Source of the DNA: a virus
DNA length: 36,143 nucleotides
Reading direction: 5' to 3' (one strand)
Virus record (IMG/VR): IMGVR_UViG_3300010885_022591
Coordinates: 1 to 36,143 of that record
Shown: piece by piece, positions 1 to 22,300 of the stretch
Position numbering within the stretch: position 1 is the first letter of the stretch
Layout: the number at the start of each line of letters is the position of its first letter
Made by a program: the position numbers and the translations under genes
Notes under the pieces: model-generated
Databases searched by the model: none
What the model was told of the DNA's origin: nothing
What the model saw: the letters and a program-made list of their open reading frames with translations, nothing else

Positions 1-1
1 T

Positions 2-445
2 ATAACGTTATCCAATGGTGATACGTTACCAATTGAACAGGTTATAATCGGTATGGAAGTTATGACATGGAATGAGCAAAATGGTAAACAGGAAATAGGT
101 GTAGTAACTGATTTAATTAGACCAATGAGTGCTGATATCATATCAATAGATTTATCTACCGATTCGATACAATGTACGGATGAACATCCTATATTTGTAA
201 TTGGTAAAGGCTGGGCATCTTATAATCCGGTTAAAACAAAACTAATACACAATATGAGTGTAGAGCTACTATCGGCAGGCGATTTAGTATTAAATAGTTC
301 TAATGAATCAATCGCTATAAATTCAATAGAGCCAATAGTAGTGCTATCAGCTATACAAACATATAATCTAACAATAGCAGAAAATAGTACATATTATGCT
401 AATGGAATATTAGTGCATAATAAAATTGCCAAACAATATATGTAA
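2..445 (+). CDS. C-terminal Hint (intein/hedgehog-like) autoprocessing domain of a truncated protein
   Basis: The gene is cut by the left edge: the frame is already open at base 2, and the ATG at 53 lies inside the domain, so it is not the true start. What remains reads as a Hint fold. An opening ITLSNGDTLPIE (the part just after the catalytic Cys of the family) is followed by a block-B-like TDEHPIF, and the end matches the family's closing block (TYNLTIAENSTYYANGILVHN). The His-Asn pair needed for C-terminal cleavage by Asn cyclisation is present. Only seven residues (KIAKQYM) follow it, and the +1 residue is Lys, not Cys/Ser/Thr. Splicing is therefore unlikely; self-cleavage or attachment, as in bacterial intein-like domains, is more plausible. 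The N-terminal catalytic Cys and the carrier protein lie outside the window. A tail or adhesin carrier is inferred from the neighbours. Confidence 0.85.
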   Translation: MTLSNGDTLPIEQVIIGMEVMTWNEQNGKQEIGVVTDLIRPMSADIISIDLSTDSIQCTDEHPIFVIGKGWASYNPVKTKLIHNMSVELLSAGDLVLNSSNESIAINSIEPIVVLSAIQTYNLTIAENSTYYANGILVHNKIAKQYM

Positions 446-519: not shown

Positions 520-3500
520 ATGGCTATTAATCAAAATAATTCAGGATTTTTTGGTGGTGGGGCTAACAATAACAGCGGTGGTACAGGCGATGGTCCAGGT
601 TTAGGCGGTGGCGGCGGTACAGGCGCCGGAAGTGGTATAACTAACCTAACAAATAATGCAGGCGATGGTTCTGGAGGAGGTGGTGGATATACTGGAGGTG
701 GTGTGGTTACGCCAACAACAACGACTACTACAAGTACAACCACTACTACAACTACGCAGCCATATCTTCCAACCGGATTTGCAACATCTAAAGGTGATAT
801 AATATTAAATTTAACTGCGGATGAAGCTGTTGAATTTTCTTTTATTGATCAGACAGGGTTTCCTAAATCGTTTGCCATATCAAATACATATCAATTTAAA
901 AGAAACCATTTACAATTTCACGGACCGTATATATTCCGTGCACAAAATACAGGTACAACTTCTTTAAACCGATTTAGTGTATCAGTTGAGAGGGAGCAAA
1001 ATACGGCAAAAGAATATTTTTGGATAGTTGAGCAGGAATATAATCCCACAACCCAAACATTTTCCGTTATAAATGAGAGAAAGATAACTACAAATACGAT
1101 TGTAGAAGAATTGCATTTTAGATTTAGTAGTGTACAAACCTCTACGACAACTACCACTACAACTCAGCCGCAGATTACTACCACTACAACGACTACTACA
1201 ACAACTACAGCTAATCCTGTTGTTAATTATGAGATTGCGTTTGCTACAAATTTTAATAATGAATTAGGTAATAATCTTACTCTAAAATATAACATTGTAG
1301 ATAAAAATGGAAACTCCGTAGATTCGGATAGTATATTATTACAAAATAAAAATACAGATAATAAAAAGATTGTAAATAGTATAGCGCTTAATTCTAATGT
1401 TAATATCCAATTAATTGGTACGTTTTCATCTGAATACAAATATACGCATATATACTACACCAATTCTAGAAATGTAAAATCAATCAATAATGATTTTTCA
1501 ACATGGACGGAAGTATCGGGGCCAAACTTTACAATACCTGGTAAAGAATTACTAAGTAGTATCGCTGTGGTTGCTTTATTTGAAAAGACTTTAATTAATG
1601 TTAGCCCGATACTTACTTTGGATACTTCTTCATTTGATGTAGAAGTAAAGGAGTCCGATACGGATAAGCAAATAAACATACCATTCAGCGTAAAACAAGC
1701 TGATTTTGTTGATGTTTATATTACCAAAGATAATGTTATTAGAGTTCCTGCAAATAATGGATTTGCTAATTTATTTTTCAAAAAAGATTTTGGTGGAATA
1801 TATGGTAGTAAACGAATAGTATTTGTACCAGTTAATAACACATATGGCACTGGTAATAAAGTTGAGGTTATTATTAATTTTAAACTTGTTAATGATTTTC
1901 CAAGCATAGTTCAAATATTATATCCTACGAATGTAGAAGTTCCTTCATTTTCAGATGGTAATATAGATTGGGAAATACATTACCAATCATTTGCGGCAAC
2001 AAGTGTTGATGTTGATTTATTAGCAAGAGATAAAAGTCGTATTCCTTTATTTAAAAATTTAAAACCAAATGATTCTTTTAAAATAAATCTAAAAGAATTA
2101 GGTAATAAGTTTTCTAATTGGAATGGTAATGATACAATAACGCTCGTATTTAGACCTATTAATAGAGGTGGTGAGCATGAATTAATTGGTAATGAATATG
2201 AAGTTATAACATCTATAGTATATCCTAAAATACAATTAGATGAAGATATAATAAGAAAGTCTATCTTTGATGCATTCATGGATAAACTTAAGTTTACAGA
2301 GCCTGAATTAGAAAGTAAATATCTTACACACTTACTTAATTTTGGCGATGACCAGCATTTATTAATTTCGTCGTGGGAAGAAGATAATTGGACTCTATCA
2401 GATAAGCAGACTGATGAATTAGGAAATGTTACGGTAACGAATGAGGTAAAATCTTTAATACTAAAATTATACTCGCCGCTACCTGCTGAATATCAAACAA
2501 ATCAAACTGTTTGGGTTACGAAGTTAATGACTAATCCATTAGTTGAAACGATTATTTTAAATGAGGAAAGTAATATTGAATGTCCTAATATAAAAGGGCC
2601 CAATTTTAATATAGATGTAGATTACATAAAAGGTGCATCTACAACATTTGAATCATTGGATAGTTTAATACTATCGGCAACTTCATCTGCGGAACTTATA
2701 AGCACATATTTAAGTTCGTCTTTTACAAATACCGATGACTTAAATATACAATATGTAAGCGGATCTCTTACTTCAAATCCATCGGGTTCATTATTAAAAA
2801 ACGGAATAATAATTGATTCATTTGCATATGATGGCGTATATCAATGGGATAATTTTGTACACTTTAGTTCGGCTAAAGATAGAGTTGATAATTTTGTTTA
2901 TAAAGTACAACTCATAGAAAGCTATAATACAGCCATAGTAAAAGCATCTACAAATTATACAGGAGGTGGTGGAGCATATTATACAGCATCGGTTGCATCG
3001 ACTCAAGAAGTACAAAGACAGCAATCCAAAAAATCAAAAATTATTCAAAGCTTTGATGGATTTGAAAAATTCTTATATACATATTCTGCCGATTATTCAA
3101 ACGCAAATTCAAGTTCAATTACGTGGCCAATACAAAATGGCGCATTGTTGGCATCAACTACCAACGTAGTGATTGGTTGGTATAATAATATAATAAACAT
3201 AGCATCGGATTATGATAAAACAAATACAAACCATTTATTAAATAATATACCGCAATATATTTTAGCAAATGAGAATAATGATAATTATCTATTATTCTTT
3301 TCAATGATTGGACACCACTTTGATAATATTTACTATTATACAAAAGCAGTTGAAAGAGGTAGGGGTCTTGGATACAAATCTAAAAATGGTATTACTGATA
3401 GATTATTATTCGATGTATTAAAATCATTAAGTTGGGATGCAAAACATTTATCTCCGAATACGGATTTGTGGCACTATGTATTTGGTACAGATGTGAATGG

Positions 3501-6096
3501 TACTAGCTCACAACAAACACCTGCTAAACAAAGAAATGCTGAAATATGGCGTAGGATAGTTAATAACATCCCATATCTATTAAAGCATAGAGGTACAAGA
3601 CGTGGTATTTATGCAATGATGGCATGCTACGGTATACCATCATCAAATCTTTCGGTAATAGAATTTGGTGGACCGGAAGTGACCGATGAAGTCAAGCATA
3701 AATTAATAATGAGTGATATTGCATATAATATTTTAATGTCACCATCTGCATCAATTCAAATACCTTGGAAAAATACTGAACAAAATAAAAAACCAAATTC
3801 CATAGAGATATTTTTAACTCCAGCGCGTAGTGGTTATTGGAATGTAATATCCGGTAGTAATTGGGGCGTATCGTTATCGGGCTCAATTGGTAGTAGTTTG
3901 GGTACTGTTATATTTAATTACTCTGGCTCAAACGCAATAACATCATCGGTATTACCTATATTTAATACTAATTATTTTGGTATTGAAATATCAAAAATAT
4001 ACACAAACTCCGGTTCGGCTAGTTTGGAATTAAATGTAAAGCAGACCGATGTAGATAGAACTATATTCTCCGGATCTTATACTAAATTAATTCAAACCGC
4101 ATCCATTGCTATGGAAAGTGGTAGTTACATTTATATAGGAAGTGGTAGTAATGGGTTTAGTGGTAGTATAGATGAAATAAGATTATGGTCTACCGCATTA
4201 AGCTCAAGTAAATTCTTTGAGCACTGTCACTATCCAGAGATGATAAATGGTAATAATATATCATCTTCATATAGCGATTTATATTTCAGACTTGATTTTG
4301 AATATCCTAAGAATGTTGCGCTAACTTCATCTTTTATAAATGTTTCACCAACCACATATTACTCCGGAACATTGGATAGAAACTATTATGAAAGTGGAAA
4401 TGGCAGACTAACAACATTAGCTTCTACAAATATTTCAGCATCATTAAGTGCTTCGGCATTTGGATTTACATCGGCAACAGCATATCCGTATCAATTCCAA
4501 GTAATAGAAAGAGATGTAGTATTGGCAACTCCTGATCTGGGTGTATCTCGATACTCTACAAATAAAATTAGAAACGAAGACCAGATTTTAATAAATGATT
4601 TATCACCAAACTATCGTTCAACTATTCAAACGAATCAATTATCTCCTGGTGATACGAACCGTGTTGGTATATTTTTATCTACTGCTAAGGAAATAAATTT
4701 AGATATAGCTAGGTCAATTGGTGCAGAAAATTTAGATAACTATATTGGTAATCCAGATGATTTATATGAGGAAACTTATAAACCACTTGAAAGTTTAAGA
4801 AATTATTACTTTAAAAGATATAAAAATAGAGATGTATATTCCTATATAGATTTAATTAAATTATATGAGAAAGCAATGTTTGATGATATTAAACAAATGC
4901 TTCCAGCAAGAGTTGCAGTGGCAACTGGCTTATTAATTGAACCGCATTTTTTAGAAAGAAATAAATTAAAACATAAAAGACCAAGTGTAGAAAATAATCA
5001 AATTAATACCGTATTAAATGCCGAATTGCATACGGTTATAACTTCTGAAATTGAGCAGTTTAATACTGTAGTGGATTGTCATTCAACAACCGATGTTAAT
5101 GGTGAGTCGGTACAATTGGAAAAAACGATTAATACCGAAGATGATATTAATACAATTGCTAATGAATATCAATTGGATACCTTAATTGCAAATACATCAC
5201 CATTGGTTACTTCCGAAAATTACGAATACTATTCTACTATTATAAATGATACGGCAATATCAAGTTATAATGAGCAATATGAATGTATAATTGATTCGCA
5301 TATCATTAAGAACACCGTATTATCGGAATCGGAACTGAATGCTTCAAATACCATTATAGATGATAATAGTTTATATAATACTATTGGATATGGAATTTAT
5401 TTAGAAAATGGATCTGCAATAAGAACTTATTATGATGCTAATAAAAACAAAATAAAAGAAAGAATTAAAGTATACGTTGTAAAAGTACAAAAACAAAGAG
5501 TTGTAACCGTACCAAACGTTGTAGTCAATGGTAAAGGTGATGCAAGAATGGGACTATCAAGTTCTATACAAACGTATTATGATACTACATTGGTGGTACA
5601 GCCATTTGAAGAAAATTATACTGTGAGTTCTTCGTATGATGCTAATAATCTTCCTATTACATTTTTAAATCCAAATTCTATGTATCAAATATCATCATAC
5701 AATCCGGCAGATGATTTTTCTAATATAGGAGGGCCTGCTCCCGCTGGTGGTTATAATGGAATGCGATTTATTGCAAAAGGAACAACTCCAAAAGTTTGGA
5801 CGGCTACTACTGGTACCGGATTGATATTTGTACCAAAGACTACATACGCTCCTTTCTCTGGAAGTGGTAACATTGTAGAAGTTTCTATACCATCGGGATA
5901 TTTGAGTTCACATTATTCAAAAAATTCATTATTAACAACAGGTATGAAAAATGCATATTATAGAGGTTGTAAAAATACAGCAGCAACTACTTTAGATGGA
6001 ACTCCGCCTATTGAAGTGTTTACAACTAACCCTAATGCTATTAAAGTAAATAAAGCAGGTAGGGACATATCAGAACCTATTTTAGAAGTAGGATAA
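520..6096 (+). CDS. Giant (1858 aa) tail/baseplate-type structural protein with poly-Thr linkers and LamG-like domain
   Basis: Modular virion protein, probably of the tail or baseplate. Residues 1-65 are Gly/Asn-rich low complexity. Two almost pure Thr stretches (about 69-86 and 206-234) flank a first small beta domain and look like extended linkers. Around residues 1008-1050 is a helical block ending in LLKHRGTRRGIYAMMACYGIP and then EFGGP, which recalls the KGT-containing region of gpI-type baseplate proteins; that likeness is only suggestive. Residues about 1093-1245 look like a concanavalin/LamG-type lectin domain, with the typical GSIDEIRLWSTALS near the end. Residues about 1490-1610 hold degenerate short repeats. 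The start follows an ATATTTAT octamer and an A-rich leader without Shine-Dalgarno. It could be a baseplate wedge or receptor-binding component; I cannot assign a T4 gene number. Confidence 0.65.
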   Translation: MAINQNNSGFFGGGANNNSGGTGDGPGLGGGGGTGAGSGITNLTNNAGDGSGGGGGYTGGGVVTPTTTTTTSTTTTTTTQPYLPTGFATSKGDIILNLTADEAVEFSFIDQTGFPKSFAISNTYQFKRNHLQFHGPYIFRAQNTGTTSLNRFSVSVEREQNTAKEYFWIVEQEYNPTTQTFSVINERKITTNTIVEELHFRFSSVQTSTTTTTTTQPQITTTTTTTTTTTANPVVNYEIAFATNFNNELGNNLTLKYNIVDKNGNSVDSDSILLQNKNTDNKKIVNSIALNSNVNIQLIGTFSSEYKYTHIYYTNSRNVKSINNDFSTWTEVSGPNFTIPGKELLSSIAVVALFEKTLINVSPILTLDTSSFDVEVKESDTDKQINIPFSVKQADFVDVYITKDNVIRVPANNGFANLFFKKDFGGIYGSKRIVFVPVNNTYGTGNKVEVIINFKLVNDFPSIVQILYPTNVEVPSFSDGNIDWEIHYQSFAATSVDVDLLARDKSRIPLFKNLKPNDSFKINLKELGNKFSNWNGNDTITLVFRPINRGGEHELIGNEYEVITSIVYPKIQLDEDIIRKSIFDAFMDKLKFTEPELESKYLTHLLNFGDDQHLLISSWEEDNWTLSDKQTDELGNVTVTNEVKSLILKLYSPLPAEYQTNQTVWVTKLMTNPLVETIILNEESNIECPNIKGPNFNIDVDYIKGASTTFESLDSLILSATSSAELISTYLSSSFTNTDDLNIQYVSGSLTSNPSGSLLKNGIIIDSFAYDGVYQWDNFVHFSSAKDRVDNFVYKVQLIESYNTAIVKASTNYTGGGGAYYTASVASTQEVQRQQSKKSKIIQSFDGFEKFLYTYSADYSNANSSSITWPIQNGALLASTTNVVIGWYNNIINIASDYDKTNTNHLLNNIPQYILANENNDNYLLFFSMIGHHFDNIYYYTKAVERGRGLGYKSKNGITDRLLFDVLKSLSWDAKHLSPNTDLWHYVFGTDVNGTSSQQTPAKQRNAEIWRRIVNNIPYLLKHRGTRRGIYAMMACYGIPSSNLSVIEFGGPEVTDEVKHKLIMSDIAYNILMSPSASIQIPWKNTEQNKKPNSIEIFLTPARSGYWNVISGSNWGVSLSGSIGSSLGTVIFNYSGSNAITSSVLPIFNTNYFGIEISKIYTNSGSASLELNVKQTDVDRTIFSGSYTKLIQTASIAMESGSYIYIGSGSNGFSGSIDEIRLWSTALSSSKFFEHCHYPEMINGNNISSSYSDLYFRLDFEYPKNVALTSSFINVSPTTYYSGTLDRNYYESGNGRLTTLASTNISASLSASAFGFTSATAYPYQFQVIERDVVLATPDLGVSRYSTNKIRNEDQILINDLSPNYRSTIQTNQLSPGDTNRVGIFLSTAKEINLDIARSIGAENLDNYIGNPDDLYEETYKPLESLRNYYFKRYKNRDVYSYIDLIKLYEKAMFDDIKQMLPARVAVATGLLIEPHFLERNKLKHKRPSVENNQINTVLNAELHTVITSEIEQFNTVVDCHSTTDVNGESVQLEKTINTEDDINTIANEYQLDTLIANTSPLVTSENYEYYSTIINDTAISSYNEQYECIIDSHIIKNTVLSESELNASNTIIDDNSLYNTIGYGIYLENGSAIRTYYDANKNKIKERIKVYVVKVQKQRVVTVPNVVVNGKGDARMGLSSSIQTYYDTTLVVQPFEENYTVSSSYDANNLPITFLNPNSMYQISSYNPADDFSNIGGPAPAGGYNGMRFIAKGTTPKVWTATTGTGLIFVPKTTYAPFSGSGNIVEVSIPSGYLSSHYSKNSLLTTGMKNAYYRGCKNTAATTLDGTPPIEVFTTNPNAIKVNKAGRDISEPILEVG

Positions 6097-6113
6097 TAAT
6101 TTTTAAAAAAACT

Positions 6114-6121
6114 ATATTTAT
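6114..6121 (+). promoter_or_regulatory. Late-promoter-like octamer ATATTTAT
   Basis: Exact octamer, start 30 nt before the ATG at 6144, in the 47-nt gap after tandem TAA stops of the preceding gene. Confidence 0.5.
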
Positions 6122-6143
6122 TAACAAACGATAATATAATACT

Positions 6144-6812
6144 ATGGGATATTTAAGTAACGCAGAATTGACAGTAGATGCAATTCTTACTAAAAAAGGT
6201 AGAGAGCAACTTGCGGCTGGAATGGGATTAAACATTACACAGTTTGCTTTGGCAGATGATGAAATTGATTACTCTTTATATGAACCTGCACATCCATTGG
6301 GGTCTGCATATTATGATGTGGCTATAAAAAATACGCCAGTATTGGAAGCTAGTCCCGATGAAACGCAAGTAATGAAATATAAATTGGTAACTCTTCCAAA
6401 AAATACAACACGTATTCCGGTTGTTGAGTTTGGTGTTCCAACTATTTCTGTTAATCAAAGAAGTGGAGAAGTTTCTTTATCACCTACAACATCCCCCGCA
6501 GGTAATAGGACTTTAGGATATACTATTATTCTTGCAAATAAAACCGCAGGTAATATTATAGGCGAGGGAGTTACCTCGGATGTTGGTACTGTTCCTATTT
6601 ATATTGGTGATGATGTATCGGCAACGGCAGCTATCGCTAAGGGTTTAACATTCAAATTTATACCTAACCCGGCTATAACAAGTACAATCAAAACAACAAT
6701 AACTGTGTATGGTAATGAAACCGGTGGTTCTCAAACTATTCCAGTTACCGTAACATATTTCAACTTTAATAGAAGTGAGTATGTTAAAGGAAAAATACAA
6801 AATTTAGGATAA
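6144..6812 (+). CDS. Conserved phage structural protein of unknown function (222 aa)
   Basis: The first 110 residues contain a block that I recognise as recurring in T4-like phages of marine and Bacteroidetes origin: LTKKGREQLAAG, then FALADDEIDYSLYEPAHP, then a KYKLVTLPKNT segment. The rest is beta-rich, with Ig-like alternation of Thr, Val and Gly. There is no signal peptide, membrane segment or catalytic motif. Its place between the giant tail protein and two paralogous structural proteins suggests a tail or baseplate component. It ends in tandem TAA codons, and the next gene starts 24 nt downstream without a late octamer, so the two are probably co-transcribed. Confidence 0.7.
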   Translation: MGYLSNAELTVDAILTKKGREQLAAGMGLNITQFALADDEIDYSLYEPAHPLGSAYYDVAIKNTPVLEASPDETQVMKYKLVTLPKNTTRIPVVEFGVPTISVNQRSGEVSLSPTTSPAGNRTLGYTIILANKTAGNIIGEGVTSDVGTVPIYIGDDVSATAAIAKGLTFKFIPNPAITSTIKTTITVYGNETGGSQTIPVTVTYFNFNRSEYVKGKIQNLG

Positions 6813-6836: not shown

Positions 6837-8105
6837 ATGGCAATAGTTAGAGATAATAGAGGAGCGCTTTTAGCAAGTAATCTATCAAAGTATTTAGCAA
6901 ACACTGCGAATACTGCAGGTACTCCAATAGATACAAATGAAATGGTTAATATAATTAACCAATTTTTAGGAACAGGTGAACAAATCGGTTCAAATGTTTC
7001 AACTTTTACAACGGGTATCTACAAGAAATTCGCTGATAATGATAAGATTACAAATAGAACCCAAGTAGTAACTGCTGGTATTTGGAGTGGCGATACTGGT
7101 TCTTTATCAGCATTTTATACATCATCGACTCAGGTAGCAAGTACATTAGGTAAATACTACATTAATGCATATAATATTGACCCAGCATCAACGGCAGCTG
7201 AGGTTCAATTCTCATTGGCTTATGCTGATGTAAATGGATATGGTGCACCAACATTGGCACAAGACCAATCTTCAACAAGTCCATCGCTGGCATTGTATAA
7301 GCAATTAAGAAATATATTATTAAACCCAGGTGATAGATATTTTAGTGTATATTCTGGCTCAAATGCTACTGGCAAGGATATGAAAAGCATGTATATTATC
7401 AATATCAATCGTTCTAGATGGAAAGAGAGAATGGATCCAGGAAATATATCAATATCTCTATCTGGTTCAAAAGGCATTATTACACTTATCGATGATAGTG
7501 GTGGAGCAGATGAAAATGTAACAACAGCTGGCCGTATTTATCGTATAGTTAGTGGATCATTAAATATAGGGTCTGCATTAACTTCATCTATTGCATCGTA
7601 TGTTGATACATATTCGCAAGAGGGGTATGGTTTATTTTATCCTGATATGGGATTGATTCTTTTAAACCCTACGGCACTATCTGGATCTGTTGGTACTGTT
7701 CGTGGTGGTTCATTAAAAGCTGCACCAAGTTCTATTATAGGATATTACCATAATAACTCATTGAGTGGTAGTACAGTTACAAATAATTCGGGATCTATTG
7801 TATTGTTAAACGCAATAGATGATGGTAATGCATTTGCTGCTCGTAGAACTGAAAATGTTTCTACTTCTCACTATTTTGTTAGAGCAAATAATAGAGAATA
7901 CAACTTTTCAAACAACCCATCGTTTGTAACAGGATCATCTGGTCAGTTTATTCAGGCTTTATTTGAAAATGACCCGCATGTATATGTTACAACAGTAGGA
8001 TTATATAATGATTCGCATGAATTGTTAGCAGTAGCTAAGACATCTACTCCTATTGAAAAAACATTTGATAAAGAAATAGCAATAAAAGTTAAATTAGATT
8101 TTTAA
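6837..8105 (+). CDS. Structural protein (422 aa), paralogue of the protein at 8177-9451 by its C-terminal domain
   Basis: The N-terminus (MAIVRDNRGALLASNLSKYL) is helical and the body is rich in Ser-Gly-Ser turns and beta strands, typical of tail or baseplate proteins. The last 40 residues (VTTVGLYNDSHELLAVAKTSTPIEK, ending KVKLDF) closely match the end of the next gene's product (ITTIGLYDEHCNLVAVAKLPTPIKS, ending IIRFDI), so the two share a C-terminal module. There is no enzymatic motif. The gene is followed within 22 nt by a strong factor-independent terminator, so it closes the transcript that begins near 500. I cannot name a T4 equivalent. Confidence 0.7.
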   Translation: MAIVRDNRGALLASNLSKYLANTANTAGTPIDTNEMVNIINQFLGTGEQIGSNVSTFTTGIYKKFADNDKITNRTQVVTAGIWSGDTGSLSAFYTSSTQVASTLGKYYINAYNIDPASTAAEVQFSLAYADVNGYGAPTLAQDQSSTSPSLALYKQLRNILLNPGDRYFSVYSGSNATGKDMKSMYIININRSRWKERMDPGNISISLSGSKGIITLIDDSGGADENVTTAGRIYRIVSGSLNIGSALTSSIASYVDTYSQEGYGLFYPDMGLILLNPTALSGSVGTVRGGSLKAAPSSIIGYYHNNSLSGSTVTNNSGSIVLLNAIDDGNAFAARRTENVSTSHYFVRANNREYNFSNNPSFVTGSSGQFIQALFENDPHVYVTTVGLYNDSHELLAVAKTSTPIEKTFDKEIAIKVKLDF

Positions 8106-8126
8106 AAAGAATAGCTAGTAACTACC

Positions 8127-8151
8127 AACCCACCTTAATTGGTGGGTTTTT
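8127..8151 (+). terminator. Rho-independent terminator
   Basis: Perfect 8-bp stem AACCCACC / GGTGGGTT with loop TTAATT, running into a T tract. It stands out for its GC content and lies 22 nt after the stop of the 422-residue protein. It is the clearest terminator inside the structural region. Confidence 0.9.
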
Positions 8152-8161
8152 AGTTAAATGG

Positions 8162-8169
8162 ATATTTAT
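8162..8169 (+). promoter_or_regulatory. Late-promoter-like octamer ATATTTAT
   Basis: Exact octamer directly after the terminator, 15 nt before the ATG at 8177, as expected for restarting transcription. Confidence 0.55.
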
Positions 8170-8176
8170 TAATAAT

Positions 8177-9451
8177 ATGTTAAAAAAGATACCCAAATCA
8201 GATATACAGATTCGTCCATTCAAAGCTTATAAACAATGGAACTTCAATCAAAGTAGCGCTGAGATTTCCGTGTTTGATACAACGGGAACCACTTTTTATG
8301 ATAATGCTCCCACACTAACCGGAAATACCGATAGTAATGGAAATATATTATCTTTTAATTCATACGCTATATATAAGCAGTTAATTCATCAATTCTATGA
8401 CCCAATATCCACAAATAATCCATTTTTAAGATTTGGGACAAAATCATCGGAGTATATTCAAGAGGTGGATGACTATTCGCAAGAACGGTATATAGCACCG
8501 GTTATATCCGGCTCTAAAGCAATAAAAGTAGTATCAATTCCTCAAAAATACGTTGGCGAAGGTATAAAGAAAAAATCAGTTTCAATTTATTGTACCGGAA
8601 TTGGGCCCAGTAATATTAGTAAAACTTTAATAGATGATGGGTATGGTAATTTAATATTCGATGATACGGTTTCGGTTACTAATTTTTCTTTGGATTTGAC
8701 ATTAGGAGTTTTTTCATTTGATTTTACAGATATTTCGACTGTTGCAACACGATACACAACCAGTGTTGATAATAATTATTGGAATCTGCAAACCGGAGTT
8801 GTAAAAATAACTTATAATAATATCACATATACTTGCAATATAATAAGTTACAATGCCGTAGCAAAAACAGCTACGTTTGATAAATTACCATTTGTTCGTG
8901 GTATTTCGGCAGAACAATATGTTGGTAATGTTTTTTATAGTCAAGGATTGATAGTATTTAATAAATACATTAGTACATTTACGAATTGGACTTTACAATA
9001 TAATTCAACAATGACTATATATGAACACGAATATCTTATAGTAGTTAAAGAAGATGAATTTAATGTTTCTACTAATCCGTCAGCAACTATAACTTTCAAT
9101 GATGAAACTGGATCATTTACAGATAGTTTTGGACTAGTTCGTTATGTTGTATATAATCCAGGACAAAAGTATATACGAAAAAGTCAAATGATGGAAAATG
9201 GTAATATATTAGACTTAAGGTATAAAGGATCAGTATCATCTTCCGTTACAAATGATTGGATATATGCCGGATTTGAACATTGGGAAGTAAGCGGTTCAAC
9301 TGATAGAACTGGATCATTTTTAGCACCTATGATTACAACAATTGGATTGTATGATGAACATTGTAACTTAGTAGCAGTTGCAAAATTACCAACACCAATT
9401 AAATCATTACCCGATCATCCTATAAATTTTATTATAAGATTTGATATTTAA
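8177..9451 (+). CDS. Structural protein (424 aa) sharing its C-terminal module with the preceding gene product
   Basis: Beta-rich protein with Ser/Gly/Thr turns and no enzyme motif. The N-terminus (MLKKIPKSDIQIRPFKAYKQW) is charged, and a YKQLIHQFYDP helix lies near residue 75. The C-terminal 40 residues carry the TTIGLYDEHCNLVAVAK...TPI module seen in the protein at 6837-8105, while the rest of the two proteins is not obviously alike; this fits duplication of an assembly or docking domain. Nearly equal length (424 and 422 residues) supports paralogy. The gene has its own terminator upstream and octamer promoter, so it is transcribed apart from its paralogue. A tail or baseplate role is inferred from context. 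Confidence 0.7.
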   Translation: MLKKIPKSDIQIRPFKAYKQWNFNQSSAEISVFDTTGTTFYDNAPTLTGNTDSNGNILSFNSYAIYKQLIHQFYDPISTNNPFLRFGTKSSEYIQEVDDYSQERYIAPVISGSKAIKVVSIPQKYVGEGIKKKSVSIYCTGIGPSNISKTLIDDGYGNLIFDDTVSVTNFSLDLTLGVFSFDFTDISTVATRYTTSVDNNYWNLQTGVVKITYNNITYTCNIISYNAVAKTATFDKLPFVRGISAEQYVGNVFYSQGLIVFNKYISTFTNWTLQYNSTMTIYEHEYLIVVKEDEFNVSTNPSATITFNDETGSFTDSFGLVRYVVYNPGQKYIRKSQMMENGNILDLRYKGSVSSSVTNDWIYAGFEHWEVSGSTDRTGSFLAPMITTIGLYDEHCNLVAVAKLPTPIKSLPDHPINFIIRFDI

Positions 9452-9462
9452 TAAAATTATTT

Positions 9463-9470
9463 ATATTTAT
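9463..9470 (+). promoter_or_regulatory. Late-promoter-like octamer ATATTTAT
   Basis: Exact octamer, start 23 nt before the ATG at 9486. A TTTG lies 18 nt upstream of the matching TATATTTA, so a host-type promoter is a weaker alternative. Confidence 0.45.
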
Positions 9471-9485
9471 ATAAAAATAGAAAAT

Positions 9486-9698
9486 ATGGCACAGAGTATT
9501 ATAGATACATATAACGCAAAACAAAAGGAATTGGGAGTGGATAAAATTTCATTCGCAGCCGGTCAGACTGCTAAAACCCCATATACTACCGATGATTTAA
9601 AAAATGCAGATGATCAAGTTTTAACGGCTGCTAAATTTAAAACAGGTCGTGGTGGTGAATTGCCTGGAATGAAATATTCTGATACTAATCCGAAATAA
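9486..9698 (+). CDS. Small protein of unknown function (70 aa)
   Basis: Begins MAQSIIDTYNAKQKELGVDK. An in-frame ATG at 9441 would overlap the end of the previous gene and translate the AT-rich leader (with the octamer at 9463) into an Ile/Tyr-rich tail, so I take the ATG at 9486. The product is polar, with a Gly-rich end (KTGRGGELPGMKYSD), and has no Cys, signal peptide or membrane segment. It lies between the structural genes and the endonuclease gene and could belong to either group. I do not recognise it. Confidence 0.65.
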   Translation: MAQSIIDTYNAKQKELGVDKISFAAGQTAKTPYTTDDLKNADDQVLTAAKFKTGRGGELPGMKYSDTNPK

Positions 9699-9707
9699 TA
9701 GCACATT

Positions 9708-10118
9708 ATGGCTAAAAGAGTTATATTACCCAAATCAAATTGGGTTGCAAAAAAGCATGGGTTTAAATCTGGACTTGAAGAAAGTATATCCAATCAAATA
9801 GATAGTAAAGGAATTAAAGTGATGTATGAAACTGAAAAGGTTGCGTATATCATTCCTGCATCAGACCATACATATCATCCAGACTTTTTACTACCAAATG
9901 GTATCTATGTAGAAACCAAAGGTAGATTTGTAATTGCCGATAGAAAAAAGCACCTACTAATAAAATCGCAGCATCCTGAATTGGATATTCGATTTGTATT
10001 TACAAATTCTAGAAATAAGATAAACAAAGCTTCTAAAACTACTTATGCCGATTGGTGTGAGAAGAATGGGTTTAAATATGCAGATAAAGTTATACCGGAA
10101 GATTGGTTTAATGAGTAA
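9708..10118 (+). CDS. T7-type endonuclease I (Holliday-junction resolving enzyme)
   Basis: Cuts branched DNA such as four-way junctions, which must be resolved before packaging. It is a clear member of the phage T7 gp3 family: GFKSGLEESIS, IPASDHTYHPDFLLPNG, YVETKGRF and DRKKHLLIKSQHPELDIRFVF match T7 endonuclease I almost word for word from memory. The four catalytic residues of T7 (E20, D55, E65, K67) correspond to E24, D59, E69 and K71, all offset by four. Length (136 aa) is close to that of the T7 enzyme. T4 itself uses the unrelated endonuclease VII (gp49), so this looks like a non-orthologous replacement. It lies at the head of the DNA-metabolism cassette, 9 nt after the previous stop. 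Confidence 0.95.
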   Translation: MAKRVILPKSNWVAKKHGFKSGLEESISNQIDSKGIKVMYETEKVAYIIPASDHTYHPDFLLPNGIYVETKGRFVIADRKKHLLIKSQHPELDIRFVFTNSRNKINKASKTTYADWCEKNGFKYADKVIPEDWFNE

Positions 10119-11100: not shown

Positions 11101-11657
11101 TGAAGATAGCGTTTATACTACCTGGTAGGGATTTTTCCAATAGGTTCATAGATAGTTGGACAAATGTTTTATACTCGATGCCAAAGGAATGGGATTGGGT
11201 TCACATTTGCGGATATGCACCAAATATATTCTACAATAGAGAAGCATTGCTATACAGAGCAAAGGTATTCAAACCAACGCATTATATGTGGATTGATAGT
11301 GACCAGGTTTTTAATTTTAAAATGTTAGAAAAGTTGGTAAAATATGATTTACCAATAATCTCTGGAATATATAAAAAATCACCAACATTATTTGCATGTT
11401 GTAAATTAAATGGCGAAACCCTAACAATAGAAGATGTTGTAGGGCAAACGGAGTTAATGGAAGTTAAAGCAAATGGTATGGGATTCATGTTAGTAAAGCG
11501 TGAAGTATTTGATTGTATAGTAGACCCATTTGAACCACAAGATCCAGACCAATGGGAAGATTTTACGTTTGCAAATAAAGCAAGAGAAAGAGGATATAAA
11601 TCATATGTAGATCCAACATTAATAGTTGGACATGAAAAAAAGATAGTTTATGAATAA
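11100..11657 (+). CDS. Small GT-A-fold glycosyltransferase-like protein (185 aa)
   Basis: Contains the Asp-x-Asp signature of nucleotide-sugar-dependent GT-A enzymes in HYMWIDSDQVF (D66-S67-D68). It also has GMGFMLVKREVFD and an EDFTFANKARERGYKSYVD stretch ending in a conserved His (VGHEK), typical of short phage glycosyltransferases. The N-terminal strand (KIAFILPGRDF) fits the start of a Rossmann-like sugar-nucleotide domain. It may modify phage DNA, virion proteins or host glycans; the sequence does not say which. It overlaps the primase gene by 1 nt and the Mre11-Rad50 gene by 8 nt, so it belongs to that operon. Confidence 0.75.
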   Translation: MKIAFILPGRDFSNRFIDSWTNVLYSMPKEWDWVHICGYAPNIFYNREALLYRAKVFKPTHYMWIDSDQVFNFKMLEKLVKYDLPIISGIYKKSPTLFACCKLNGETLTIEDVVGQTELMEVKANGMGFMLVKREVFDCIVDPFEPQDPDQWEDFTFANKARERGYKSYVDPTLIVGHEKKIVYE

Positions 11658-14600
11658 GTTAAAAAAGATTTATCATATTGCGGATATACATATTCGTAAT
11701 GTAAAAAGACACAAAGAGTATAGAGAAGTTTTTGAAAAAATGTTTACTGAAATTCGTAAGCATGGGACTGAGGACTCTATTATTTATTTAGCAGGAGATA
11801 TTGCTCATGCTAAATTAGAAATGTCACCGGAATTAATTAGTGAAATAGTTTGGCTATTTACGGAGTGTGCAAAAACATGTCCTACTATTCTTATAGCTGG
11901 GAATCACGATTGTAATATGAATAACTCCGATAGGCTTGATGTGCTTACGCCCATAGTTACAGCACTCAATCTCGATAATTTTACTTATTTAAAAGATACA
12001 CAAATACATTCAATTGGCGATGTTGATTTTGCAGTATTCAGTATTTTTGATAACAAAGATAATTGGCCTAAAGCAGATACTCTTACTGGTAAAACAAAGA
12101 TTGCTCTATTTCATGGGCCTGTTGATAATTCTACAACAGATATTGGATATGTAGTTAGTAGTAGACATTTTACAACGGATATATTTGATGGTTACGATTT
12201 AGCCTTATTAGGTGATATTCATAAACGTCAAGAAATGGTAAGCCCTACCGGGTGTAAAGTTGTATATGCTGGCTCATTGATACAGCAAAACTTTGGTGAA
12301 ACACTTGGTAAGCATGGGTTCTTAGTTTGGGATTTGGATACTATGAACTATGAGGAGATTGATATTCAAAATGATTATGGGTATTATACTTTAGATATAG
12401 ATAGTGGTTATGTGCCGGTTGTAACGGATATGCCAATTCATCCACGTCTTCGTGTTCGTATATCCAATACCGATACAGCCGATACAAAGCGTGTAATGAC
12501 CGATATCAAAATGAAATATGGTGTAGATGATTTTACTGTCATTCGTACAGACTCACTTTCTAAATTAAAATCAGGCAATCGTTCTAATAAATTAGATTTT
12601 GAAGATATATCAGATGTTAATTATCAAAATTCACTCATATCGGATTATATTAGTAGAATGATGCCGTTTGTAGTGGATGATGATATTCATTCTATTCAAA
12701 AAATTAATACCGATATTAATAGTAGAATAACTCACGAGGAAATTCAAAGAAATGTACATTGGAAACCAATACGTTTTGAATTTTCTAATATGTTTAGTTA
12801 TGGTGAAAATAATACTATTGACTTTAAAAAAGTAAATGGTTTAATGGGTTTGTTTGCACCAAATGCAGCAGGTAAATCTTCTTTATTTGATGCAATTTCG
12901 TTTTGCCTTTATGATAAATGTAGTAGAGCATTCCGAGCACAAAATATCTTAAATAATCGTAAGACAACATTTCATTGTCAATTGGATTTTCAAATAAATG
13001 GTATAGACTATCACATTTGTAGAGAGGCTCGTACAATTAACAAAGGTAAGAATGTTAAAGTTGATGTACAATTTTGGAAAACGGAAGGTGGTATCGTAGT
13101 TTCACTTAATGGAACGGAAAGACGTGATACTAATACTGCTATTGAACAATATGTTGGTACTTATGAGGATTTCATTCTAACTGCTTTAAGTCTACAAGGT
13201 AATAATGCACTATTTATTGATAAATCTCAATCAGAAAGAAAAGACCTTCTTGCTCAATTTATGGGATTAAATGTATTTGATAAATTATATGAAGTAGCAA
13301 CCGAAGATATTAAGGAAGTTAGTGTACTAATTAAAAACTTTAAGAGGACTGATTTTACGACTGAATTGGCTGATAAAGGTAATGAACTTAAATCCAAAAA
13401 GAGTGAATTAAAAGATTTACAAACTAAACTTGATGGGCTATCAAATGATAAGAATACTATATTAGAAAATATACTAACTCTTACAAAAGAATTAGCGCCA
13501 ATTGATTCTACATTAGATTTGAGTAAATTAGAAAAAAGTAAAACCGATATTGAAGGTAATATCCTAAACATTCAAATTGAAAAAGTAAATAAGAAAAATA
13601 AAATTGGTGAGTTTGGTAATCTATTAGCGGAAATATCACAATCCATAGAAGAAAAGAAAACCATTCATAACAGACCTATTGAAGATGCTAAACGCCAATG
13701 GGATGAATATAAATCAGAAATAAATACTACCGAGCATAAGATTGAGCTATTAGAACAATTACTTAATTCAAATCAGGAAAAACTTTCACATTTGGAAGCA
13801 CATGAGTATGACCCAAATTGTACTTATTGTATGAACAATGTATTTGTTAAAGATGCCATTGCTACAAAACAAAAAGTTAAAGAGCAAACCGAAGAACTAT
13901 TAGAATTGGGTAATAAACAACAAACACTCATTCAGCAAGCAAGTTATATATCCGATGTTGAAGAACAATGGGATGAATTGGTTGAATCCAAATCAAAATA
14001 TCAAAAGGGAATTGTAATCAAAGAAAAAGCAGAAGCAGAGCTAAAAGGTTTGGATACAAAAGAGGAATTGTTTAAAACTCAATTAGAAGCGGTTAAAGGT
14101 GATATTAAGCGATATAATGATAATGAGGATACGATAAAACGTAATAAAGAAATTCAATCCGATATTAAGGAATTTGAAAACATAAAGAGTGGGATTGATA
14201 ACTCAATAAGAGAATTAAATAAGAAGGTAACAACCTTAAATGGTACTATTGCTTCATTACAATCGTTTGTAGAGGGTATTAAGAATAAGATGATAGAAGT
14301 TAAGGAGTTAGAAGAGAAAGGACGCCTATACAACTATTATTTAGATGCAGTTAAGCGTGATGGTATTCCTTATGAATTAATATCAAAGGCATTGCCAGTT
14401 ATACAAACAGAAGTTAATAATATATTAGCACAGGTTGTGGATTTTGGTTGTGTAATGGAGGTCGATGGTAAATCTATTAATGCAAAAATTGTATACGATG
14501 ACCAAGAGTGGCCACTTGAAATGTGTAGTGGTATGGAGAAGTTTGTAAGTGGACTTGCTATTAGAGTTGCACTAATCAATATATGCAATCTACCTCGACC

Positions 14601-14796
14601 AAACTTTCTTGTTATTGATGAGGGATTTGGTACATTGGATTCTGATAATCTTTCTTCTTTATTTATGATGATGCAATATCTTAAAACTCAATTTGATTTT
14701 ATTTGGGTAATTTCACATTTAGAACAAATGCGTGATATCGTAGATGGTCTAATTGAAATTAAAAAAATAGATGGCTTTAGTAAGATTGATTTTTAA
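11650..14796 (+). CDS. Single-chain Mre11-Rad50 (gp47-gp46) recombination nuclease-ATPase fusion, 1048 aa
   Basis: Processes DNA ends for recombination-dependent replication. T4 encodes this as two proteins, gp47 and gp46. Residues 1-340 are the Mre11-type phosphoesterase with all its metal motifs: ADIH (D12, H14), AGD (D50), GNHD (N85, H86), FHGP (H155) and GDIH (D189, H191). From about residue 370 comes the Rad50 ATPase: Walker A APNAAGKSS (K409), a long coiled coil broken at its tip by a zinc hook CTYC (724-727), signature CSGME (959-963) and Walker B/D-loop LVIDEGFGTLD (D990, E991). The first Walker A Gly is Ala. The reading frame is unbroken, so the fusion is real in this sequence. The ATG lies within the last codons of the glycosyltransferase gene. 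Confidence 0.96.
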   Translation: MNKLKKIYHIADIHIRNVKRHKEYREVFEKMFTEIRKHGTEDSIIYLAGDIAHAKLEMSPELISEIVWLFTECAKTCPTILIAGNHDCNMNNSDRLDVLTPIVTALNLDNFTYLKDTQIHSIGDVDFAVFSIFDNKDNWPKADTLTGKTKIALFHGPVDNSTTDIGYVVSSRHFTTDIFDGYDLALLGDIHKRQEMVSPTGCKVVYAGSLIQQNFGETLGKHGFLVWDLDTMNYEEIDIQNDYGYYTLDIDSGYVPVVTDMPIHPRLRVRISNTDTADTKRVMTDIKMKYGVDDFTVIRTDSLSKLKSGNRSNKLDFEDISDVNYQNSLISDYISRMMPFVVDDDIHSIQKINTDINSRITHEEIQRNVHWKPIRFEFSNMFSYGENNTIDFKKVNGLMGLFAPNAAGKSSLFDAISFCLYDKCSRAFRAQNILNNRKTTFHCQLDFQINGIDYHICREARTINKGKNVKVDVQFWKTEGGIVVSLNGTERRDTNTAIEQYVGTYEDFILTALSLQGNNALFIDKSQSERKDLLAQFMGLNVFDKLYEVATEDIKEVSVLIKNFKRTDFTTELADKGNELKSKKSELKDLQTKLDGLSNDKNTILENILTLTKELAPIDSTLDLSKLEKSKTDIEGNILNIQIEKVNKKNKIGEFGNLLAEISQSIEEKKTIHNRPIEDAKRQWDEYKSEINTTEHKIELLEQLLNSNQEKLSHLEAHEYDPNCTYCMNNVFVKDAIATKQKVKEQTEELLELGNKQQTLIQQASYISDVEEQWDELVESKSKYQKGIVIKEKAEAELKGLDTKEELFKTQLEAVKGDIKRYNDNEDTIKRNKEIQSDIKEFENIKSGIDNSIRELNKKVTTLNGTIASLQSFVEGIKNKMIEVKELEEKGRLYNYYLDAVKRDGIPYELISKALPVIQTEVNNILAQVVDFGCVMEVDGKSINAKIVYDDQEWPLEMCSGMEKFVSGLAIRVALINICNLPRPNFLVIDEGFGTLDSDNLSSLFMMMQYLKTQFDFIWVISHLEQMRDIVDGLIEIKKIDGFSKIDF

Positions 14797-19368: not shown

Positions 19369-22300
19369 ATGAATATAATAAGCGAAATCACTAAACCACT
19401 TGTTACGAAGACTGTCGTTATATACGCAGGTCGTTTTCAACCATTTCACAAAGGGCATTACGATGCTTATAAAAGACTTGTAAGTAAATTTGGACAAGAT
19501 AGTGTATACATTGGCACTTCAAATGATACAAATGATTCTAAATCACCATTTAATTTTAATGAAAAAAAGAAAATTGCTACAACTATGTTTGGCATCCCTT
19601 CTAATCATTTTGTACAAATAAGAAATCCATATAAACCAGTTGAAATATTGCAGCATTTCGATGGACAGACTACTCAATATATTGCTGCTGTTGGAGCAAA
19701 GGATGCGACACGTCTTCAAGGAAAATATTTCAAACCATATAACGGTAAGGCCGGTTATGGGTATAATGAGATAGGATATGTTTGGCCAGTACCAGCAGAA
19801 TCAAATCCAATATCAGGAACAGATGTTCGTAATGGTCTTGGTGGCGATGAAGAAAGTGCTAAGAAGTTTTTCCTTAAAGCTTATCCAAAATTTAATAAAC
19901 AAATATTTACAATGATTACTGATAAAATAAAATCATTGCATGAGGCAGCACCAATGGTTGGCGCTGGTGAGGCTGGAAGTTTTGGACTAAATCCAACTAG
20001 ATATGATGATGATGATGTTACGGAAGATGGTTTTCCAGGTGGAGTGGGTGTAGGGCTTACATTACCCGGTGGATACATAAATGGTGCACCCAATCCAAAA
20101 GATGTAAAAAAATTAAGTAAAAAAATACATACTACGGATAGTAATAAAAAATATGTATATGACCCAATTAGTGAAATAATAGCTAACGCAGTCACAGAGG
20201 AAGCATTTAACGAATTTATAAGTAACTACTTAAATGAAGCTGAACCAAATAAAGCATTAGACCAGGATATTACATATAAAAATACAAAAGGTCAATCTAA
20301 AAAAATTAAAGCTAGAGATGCATTACGTTTACCAAAAGACCACCCTGCGCATATACAAGCTGCAAAAATAGCAGCTCCTGCCGCACCAGCTGCTAAGACT
20401 GCCGGTAAACCGGATGTAAGTATACCTGGAAAGGTAGCAGGTTCTGTTGTTAAAAAGAGCGATGGTAAGCCTGATATAACAATTCCTGGTAAAGATGGTA
20501 AGCCAAAACAACAAGGTCCGCCGCCTCCACCACCAATGCCGCCAAAAAAATTAAGTGGAGCTGAATTAAAATCCAATGCTGAAATGGCACCTGGAGAAAA
20601 GGAAGCTTCTAAAAAGAATGACGAAATAAAAGCATCACTCGATCATGAAATGTCAAAACTATCAACTGATGATAAAAAATCGGTTGAAAGCGTAAATAAC
20701 CCAGATTCTCCGGAAAGAAAGGATATGGCTGAAAAATCTAAAAGTTTTTTATCAAAAGTTGGTAATAAATTATGGAGTGGCGCCAAACATTGGGCTAATG
20801 AGAAAAAAGAAATGTGTCAAGGAGTTGGTGCTGCAATAAAAACATTAGCTACAGGCGGTAAACTTGGTAGTGTAAAGGATGCAAATGGTAAATATGTACA
20901 CCATACGGATTTTAAAAATAAAACTGTACAAATCGACCCAAAGACAGCAAAGGAAAAAACAGTATGGGTAGATAAATCGGATTTAACGCCTGAAGAAAAG
21001 AAATTAAAACATAAATCCGAGCATGAGGAACATCACCAAAAGCATTCATTAAAACATGCTGCAAAAGATATTGCATTACTTGCCGCATCATTGGTTGCAG
21101 GAGCAGCTATTGGTGGAGCCGTTGGTGGTGGTATTGCTGCAGCAAAAGCTGGGGCTGCACACGGATTAGGACATGCGATTGGGCATGGCGCTGCGCATGG
21201 TGTAAGTGCAATTGCACACCACGGAGCAACAGGTATAGCCTCCCATGTTGGAAAGGATTTGATAAAACACTCTGCGTTTGAAGCTATGGGACTTAAAGGA
21301 CACCACGCCGCTGGAGCAACTGCCGCAGTTGGTGCAATTGGTCATTTAATGGAAGGTGATGATAATAATGAGAATGATAATGATAAGAATGCAAAATTAG
21401 TGGATACATTACTAAAAAGGACTATGGAAGTAATGGCAACTTATAAAATGTCGGATGAGGAATTATTAAAATCTATTAAGAATTATAATAAAAATTCAGA
21501 AAAGAATACAGCAAAAGATATACTAAAAACAATTAATGAATCTGTAACATTAGAAAAAGCAAAGAATATACAAGATTTTGTTGATTACGCTTGTGAAAGA
21601 CTTAAACTTAAAGATAAACCAAAAGTAAAATTATTATTAGATGGTGAATATTCCAATGCCGTATCTTCATTAGGTGGATATAGCCCGGTAACAAAAGATA
21701 TATACGTTGTTGTGCCTGGTAGAATGACTGCCGATATATGTAGAACTATTGCACATGAATTGGTACATAGAAAGCAAGATGAAATGGGGATGCTACGAAC
21801 TGAAAATGATGGCGATACTGGTTCACCAATAGAAAATCAAGCAAACGCTGTAGCAGGAATACTATTAAGGGATTATGGTAAAAAGAATAAAGCAATTTAT
21901 ATGGAAAGCGTAAAATATATAAACGAAGTTAGCAACAATACTGGAGATGATGGTCAACCGGATGGTGGATATCTGCCAGCTGGGCACAGACGTACGCTTG
22001 GAGCAAATGATGGTGTGAATAAAGGTGATGATTGGTTTACCGGCGGAGGTTACCTACAACTGGATTATCCAATAGCAGATGCAATATATGGTGCCGATGA
22101 AGAAAATATGTATACTGTAAAATATGTTGCTAGAAAATTAAGAAGGTCGATTGGTATAGATACTAAATTTGAAAAGAGTGAAGAAAAGGCAATAGATGTA
22201 ACTCAAGACAAAAAAAATGGAAAATTAACAGATGAAACTAATAGTAAACGTAATCTTACCGAAGTAAGTAAACGTGATATACATTTCAAAAATATATTCC

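Follow-up and report, generated by a model that had tools for sequence, protein, structure and literature searches.

What can a Hint domain accomplish when it forms the end of a phage protein and almost nothing follows it? Hint chemistry is already known from inteins, Hedgehog proteins and toxins, and the question is raised here by the first 445 bases of a virus record of 36,143 bases, the whole of which was analysed and is called the window below. The record is probably a fragment of a phage genome. In a comparison with phage records, its terminase came closest to the one encoded by Flavobacterium phage immuto (53.8%), and no terminal repeats of 30 bases or longer were found at the ends of the record. 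An exact search of viral contigs with its first 30 bases returned no match, a set outside which very near genomes possibly lie.

The gene is already under way where the window begins. An open reading frame, in frame from base 2 with its 5′ end open (positions 2–445, plus strand), encodes 147 residues; positions 1–445 (+) hold the 3′ end of a carrier gene whose N-terminal part lies beyond the contig. Profile matches and alignment with relatives place a Hint domain at 2–421 (+), corresponding to residues 8–147 of its 147. Within it lie a block-B-like TxxH motif (TDEH, 176–187, +), identified by sequence and alignment, a block-F region reading NSTYY (383–397, +) and a C-terminal VHN (413–421, +), whose penultimate His and terminal Asn occupy 416–421. 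The tail KIAKQYM follows (422–442, +), with Lys at the +1 position (422–424), and the stop codon stands at 443–445 (+). The reading frame stayed open in none of 2000 mononucleotide shuffles of the stretch.

A preliminary description of this DNA had recognised a C-terminal Hint that ends in VHN and seven residues starting with Lys, and both points are borne out. The NCBIfam intein_Cterm profile, which matches at the VHN, passes its cut-off of 15.6 with 27.7 bits, whereas Pfam Intein_splicing (1.3e-5, 25.5 bits) stays under its cut-off of 35.8. Over 140 ungapped positions, 92 residues (66%) are identical to the complete Hint of a related contig, L048, and no Cys, Ser or Thr stands at +1. Because this alignment has no gaps, what the contig lacks would be the codons for the first seven domain residues, CFVEGTx in relatives, Cys1 included.

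The window Hint, used alone as the query against viral contigs, found no relative, and relatives of the carrier were reached through the neighbouring gene for an 1858-residue protein (520–6096, +), taking the best 80 of 531 matches and then the best 80 of 221. Carriers with a Hint occur on four distinct contigs, L048, L091, L042 and L092, with full homologous genes at 7681–9912, 4543–6618 and 4228–6207 of the first three. The N-terminal Cys, which the preliminary description had left to be looked for upstream, is present in all four: each domain starts with CFVEGT directly after a Gly, and no relative covering the position lacks the Cys. TxxH occurs in all five family members, window included, and HN followed by +1 Lys in the four that cover that end. 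The domains of L048, L091 and L042 end in VHN-K-L, with 52, 58 and 17 residues, respectively, after the HN, and in block F they have His where the window has Ser. L092 breaks off within its Hint. From about position 6373 to its end it carries adaptor-like sequence, AGATCGGAAGAGC, which we take to be an adaptor and which cuts the Hint reading frame short; this end is probably an assembly artefact. L060, flagged as Hint-bearing by a regular expression, was dropped when the profile search gave no support. A scan of genome contigs added three distant bacterial matches, two of them in Rhs-like proteins (L093, L094) and one partial (L095).

The fold points to a particular class of Hint. For a model of the L048 domain (mean pLDDT 88.3), the best structural match is BIL2 (6y75/6tmm; for 6y75, Z 24.8 and 1.5 Å over 148 residues), which belongs to the BUBL1 polyubiquitin-like locus of Tetrahymena. 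The C. thermocellum BIL (2lwy) reaches Z 20.2, and BIL structures rank ahead of inteins and Hedgehog. A seven-row Hint profile, two rows of which are bacterial, likewise found 2lwy as its best match in the PDB (1.7e-26), although the phage Hint has an insertion after GKGW that is absent in 2lwy. From this model of a relative and from sequence, we class the window domain as an A-type-BIL-like Hint. It shares with A-type BILs the TxxH motif, the C-terminal His-Asn and a +1 residue other than Cys, Ser or Thr; Cys1, whose position lies beyond the window's end, is seen in the four covering relatives. Location agrees as well: BIL domains sit in hypervariable regions of non-conserved proteins (PMC7765530), and the carrier C-termini are rich in Gly, Pro and Thr and vary widely among homologues. 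The setting differs: the window's domain belongs to a phage protein encoded in a baseplate operon and stops seven residues short of its C-terminus. BIL2, in contrast, lies between ubiquitin-like domains, and its zinc-linked activation is not evident in the window Hint, whose block-F Ser would align with a BIL2 His that we interpret as a zinc ligand.

Other Hint classes accommodate the domain less well. That the contig end has truncated an ordinary class 1 intein is extremely improbable. The Cys1, TxxH and HN of the relatives would be compatible with one; the +1 residue is Lys rather than Cys, Ser or Thr, BILs are the nearest structures, and in place of a conserved site with a functional C-extein there are a variable linker in the relatives and a stop after seven residues. 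Block F, moreover, has Asn, whereas inteins usually have Asp there. The PT-HINT family of polymorphic toxins shows a resemblance at the Pfam level, with 25.1 bits for the window (2.4e-5, under the cut-off of 27.7), 34.6 for L048, 31.4 for L091 and 28.3 for L042. PT-HINT precedes and releases a toxin domain (PMC3482391), whereas the window Hint is followed by seven residues and a stop. Those seven residues likewise leave no sterol-recognition region of the kind that follows the Hint in Hedgehog Hog domains. The S74 chaperone domains, which cleave themselves off phage tail fibres, are not known to be related to Hint. They resemble it by analogy only, as C-terminal domains that remove themselves, and their catalytic residues, Ser and Lys (PMC7824862), are unlike those of Hint.

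The reading that we favour, at a probability of roughly 0.57, is that the window encodes a self-processing domain at the carrier C-terminus that would act at its own N-terminal junction, so that the protein ahead of it is either freed or transferred. Cys1, as seen in the relatives, would attack the Gly-Cys bond to form a thioester, helped by the His of TxxH. With no thiol or hydroxyl at +1 to accept it, the thioester would be resolved by water, so that the Hint cuts itself off, or by an amine, leaving the upstream part in covalent linkage. A second cut, by Asn cyclisation ahead of the +1 Lys, is conceivable as well, a step that the block-F Ser of the window may weaken further. Since such a cut would free just seven residues in the window, the useful act would lie at the N-terminal junction, where the flexible C-terminus of the carrier would be trimmed or attached. 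In a model of the L048 carrier (mean pLDDT 60.3), residues 475–543, just before Cys1, fall below a pLDDT of 50, in line with a flexible linker. A Foldseek search with this model gave no match with E below 0.001; a weak resemblance to Ena fibres was seen. We infer, rather than observe, the activity of the Hint, its timing and its benefit to the phage.

Self-cleavage, or attachment to a nucleophile, was also what the preliminary description had suggested, and it fits the closest homologues. A-type BILs, which carry a terminal His-Asn, are described as cleaving for the most part, and the authors of PMC8616854 report that BIL2 links to Lys through an isopeptide. The absence of a +1 nucleophile stands, whereas the further statement that it rules out normal splicing was too strong, because A-type BILs are said to splice without one in PMC4031507. 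Splicing of that kind, in which the Hint would leave and the Pro/Thr-rich linker would be joined to the tail, restoring an ordinary Gly-rich C-terminus, is nevertheless very unlikely here. It would suit the long tails of L048 and L091, whose richness in Gly recurs at the C-termini of many homologues lacking a Hint. However, A-type BILs are unable to ligate their flanks according to PMC7765530, and tails of seven residues in the window, 10–12 in phage collagen-like proteins and 1–4 in several other reading frames would hardly be worth splicing.

The domain also resembles a module of animal proteins. Pfam AXH, the ataxin-1/HBP1 module (PF08517), matches the window reading frame over its own cut-off (7.2e-11) and covers complete Hints nearly over their full length (L042, 8.8e-15; L207, 1.1e-24), matching L198 across two stretches (2e-41); the Hint profile matches ataxin-1 chains at 1.3e-8. 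On these profile matches, AXH may be a degenerate Hint. No statement of such a kinship was seen among the papers listed by the literature search, and AXH structures are absent among the 50 matches listed for the L048 Hint model, which does not count against the kinship. If Hints resemble AXH in sequence, the window domain might be catalytically idle and kept for folding or binding, as AXH binds in animals. Some C-terminal copies may indeed be inert: LR756508 encodes a protein with a similar C-terminal Hint, ending FHN-KH, in which SASQP replaces TxxHP and the His is missing, and TxxH is absent by regular expression in seven of 55 reading frames with a long first Hint profile hit. The window's family, wherever covered, and eight inspected collagen-like sequences, by contrast, keep Cys1, TxxH and HN, and we consider an idle domain rather unlikely.

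The self-processing domain has its carrier in a recognisable operon. The carrier gene lies directly upstream of the homologue of the 1858-residue gene in relatives, preceded by two reading frames and then by one of 673 residues. The 673-residue protein is 39% identical to an immuto protein annotated as baseplate wedge, and the 145-residue protein before it is 28% identical to an immuto protein annotated as baseplate assembly. The carrier is thus probably a protein of a baseplate operon, belonging to the tail base, a virion location suggested by gene order. The preliminary description had spoken of a virion protein, and a position downstream of baseplate wedge and assembly homologues accords with that setting as far as the operon is concerned.

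The Hint is an optional part of this carrier. Only five of 123 carrier reading frames (117 of them closed at the 3′ end), drawn from the best 80 of 531 and the best 80 of 221 matches, have a Hint match, two of the five coming from one contig; since most retrieved relatives do without the domain, it is dispensable for the carrier. On a quick tree of 120 carriers its distribution needs three changes, at least two of them forced by starred branches, and 20 of 500 shuffles gave a value as low. L091 pairs with Hint-less L103 (support 99), and L048, on a long branch, groups with Hint-less L034 and L043 (support 90). Between L048 and L091 the Hints nonetheless share 90.0% of their residues and 86.0% of their bases, whereas identity is 58.5% in the N-terminal parts and 48.0% in the tails. 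Patchiness on the tree, together with Hints far more alike than the sequences around them, indicates that the domain has been gained, lost or exchanged among carriers. A self-interested mobile domain, spreading with little benefit to the phage, would produce both patterns. Its roughly 147 residues, though, leave no room for a homing endonuclease, it is found in variable C-terminal linkers rather than at conserved sites, and dN/dS over the Hint is low (0.07–0.32 in ten pairs, with dS above 1 in seven and with four pairs involving L092, including about three adaptor-derived codons). Such an element is accordingly a decidedly unlikely explanation.

A possible partner for a transferring domain is suggested by the gene downstream. 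The 1858-residue protein has a Gly-rich N-terminus, and from about residue 575–620 onwards a core whose homologue forms one chain with the carrier N-domain in immuto, Microcystis phage Mel-JY01 and LR756508. The carrier N-domain aligns with the N-terminus of the single chains at an hhalign probability of 98.1% (E 1.1e-13), with a profile score of 94.8, where 60 column-shuffled controls reached no more than 20.9. BLAST with the L005 carrier against the three single-chain homologues, in a set of 15 proteins, gave 1.9e-7, 8.2e-6 and 1.6e-4, and the L004 carrier weaker values. By this alignment, the window family encodes in two genes what immuto, Mel-JY01 and LR756508 encode in one, with the Hint ending the first. 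The N-termini of the downstream proteins vary among loci. Shortly before the 1858-residue gene, ATATTTATA occurs at all six loci compared (window, L004, L005, L042, L048 and L091); AATATTTATA shows no enrichment across the window (2 occurrences against 1.57 expected by chance).

It is speculation that the Hint rejoins the carrier and the downstream protein. As a special case of the self-processing domain, it could serve as a built-in covalent coupler, in which the thioester would be passed regularly to a Lys or an N-terminal amine, in the tail or in a neighbouring protein, and virion parts would become linked by isopeptide or peptide bonds. Joining the carrier N-domain to the downstream core would restore the known one-chain architecture, the +1 Lys is present in all four covering family members, and BIL2, the closest fold, is the one described in PMC8616854 as making a Lys isopeptide. 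Yet the Hint is absent in most retrieved split pairs, the downstream N-termini are variable, the window has Ser at the position of the presumed zinc-binding His, and Lys in short tails may be there by chance. We regard regular coupling as unlikely on balance.

C-terminal Hints are not confined to this operon. Collagen-like proteins of Erwinia, Dickeya, Yersinia and Alcaligenes phages have one at their C-terminal end, and one of these Hints, taken as the query, matched 57 phage records, not all of them that protein. Eight collagen-like sequences were inspected; 10–12 residues follow the conserved HN, and +1 is Thr in six, Val in one and Met in one. These Hints, such as that of Y3_110, which is annotated 'contains intein domain', share the C-terminal placement and short tail of the window's, on a different carrier, and two aligned rows are 24% and 19% identical to the L048 domain. 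Gene 132 of phage NCTB ends in VHN-APVDQKH. Papers on phages CBB, AD1 and PaBG yielded nothing on the protein. Among the papers listed by the literature search, outside which subscription papers lay, none was a functional study of a phage protein with a C-terminal Hint, and no virion proteomics came up.

Environmental phages add many more examples. A DNA pattern for the VHNK ending retrieved 116 viral-contig stretches, three of them from the window family's own contigs, and 115 have a Hint profile match. The pattern itself fixes HN and Lys, so what informs is tail length, Cys1, TxxH and the carriers, not conservation of HN-K. The stretches form 31 clusters at 70% identity before the HN, three of which (L208, L253 and L294) are fragments. 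In 25 of the 31 (23 of 28 without the fragments), at least one 3′-complete reading frame stops within 60 residues of the last HN; the other six have only long stretches past it, of 147–924 residues. Behind the last HN, 46 of the 111 3′-complete reading frames have no more than 12 residues, 28 have 13–60 and 37 more than 60. A single tandem cluster contributes 29 of those 46, and without it the 64 remaining frames divide into 17, 28 and 19. L235 and L301 stop after VHNK, with a single Lys behind the HN, and several frames have tails of 1–4 residues. Among the 55 with a long first Hint profile hit, Cys stands at the start in 51 and TxxH is found by regular expression in 48. Cys1 is found by the same means in 27 of the 31 cluster representatives (L291 is doubtful); the four without it are the three fragments and L213, which has Ser there.

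The tandem cluster is the largest. All 48 of its reading frames show three or four profile hits per protein, some partial, and its environmental phage proteins, including L198 2615–5362 (−) and L207 97–2364 (−), bear their Hints towards the C-terminus. Of its 47 complete frames, 39 have Ser directly behind the last HN. Because this cluster mostly has Ser and the collagen-like proteins inspected mostly Thr, a missing +1 nucleophile is not general among phage C-terminal Hints.

Sixteen representatives were scanned for their carriers; six have a match outside the Hint, and ten have no clear match at the cut-off used. The carrier of L274 is a tail protein (phrog_2048, with a weak PF09931 match), and those of L272 and L276 are tail-fibre-like with DUF5122 beta-propeller repeats (phrog_5073, weak in L276). 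L237 has a DUF4815 protein, L240 a Calx-beta protein and L266 an LCCL protein. The 'virion structural protein' family phrog_38766 matched several carriers, yet over the Hint part. Annotation thus assigns a tail role to a few carriers, and gene order does so for the window's.

The window therefore holds a BIL-like domain in an unusual setting that belongs to a widespread phage pattern. Phage proteins that are unrelated to one another, a few tail proteins included, end in a Hint time and again, often with so little after it that classic splicing makes little sense, and such ends might serve phages to trim parts of their own or to fix them covalently. If active, they would represent a further phage self-processing scheme beside the S74 chaperone domains, or a device for covalent assembly. 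A broader proposal, that many uncultured phages use single or tandem C-terminal BIL-type Hints as energy-free ligases that fix a thioester end to a neighbouring amine, seems to us quite unlikely; in the window family, the partner could then be the adjacent 1858-residue protein.

Two further observations concern other genes of the window. A single reading frame of 1048 residues (11650–14796) matches both SbcD-like and SbcC-like parts (phrog_100 over residues 2–335, phrog_77 over 279–1047). Another, of 1682 residues (19369–24417), has GRFQPFHKGH at its N-terminus, presumably the mark of a nucleotidylyltransferase.
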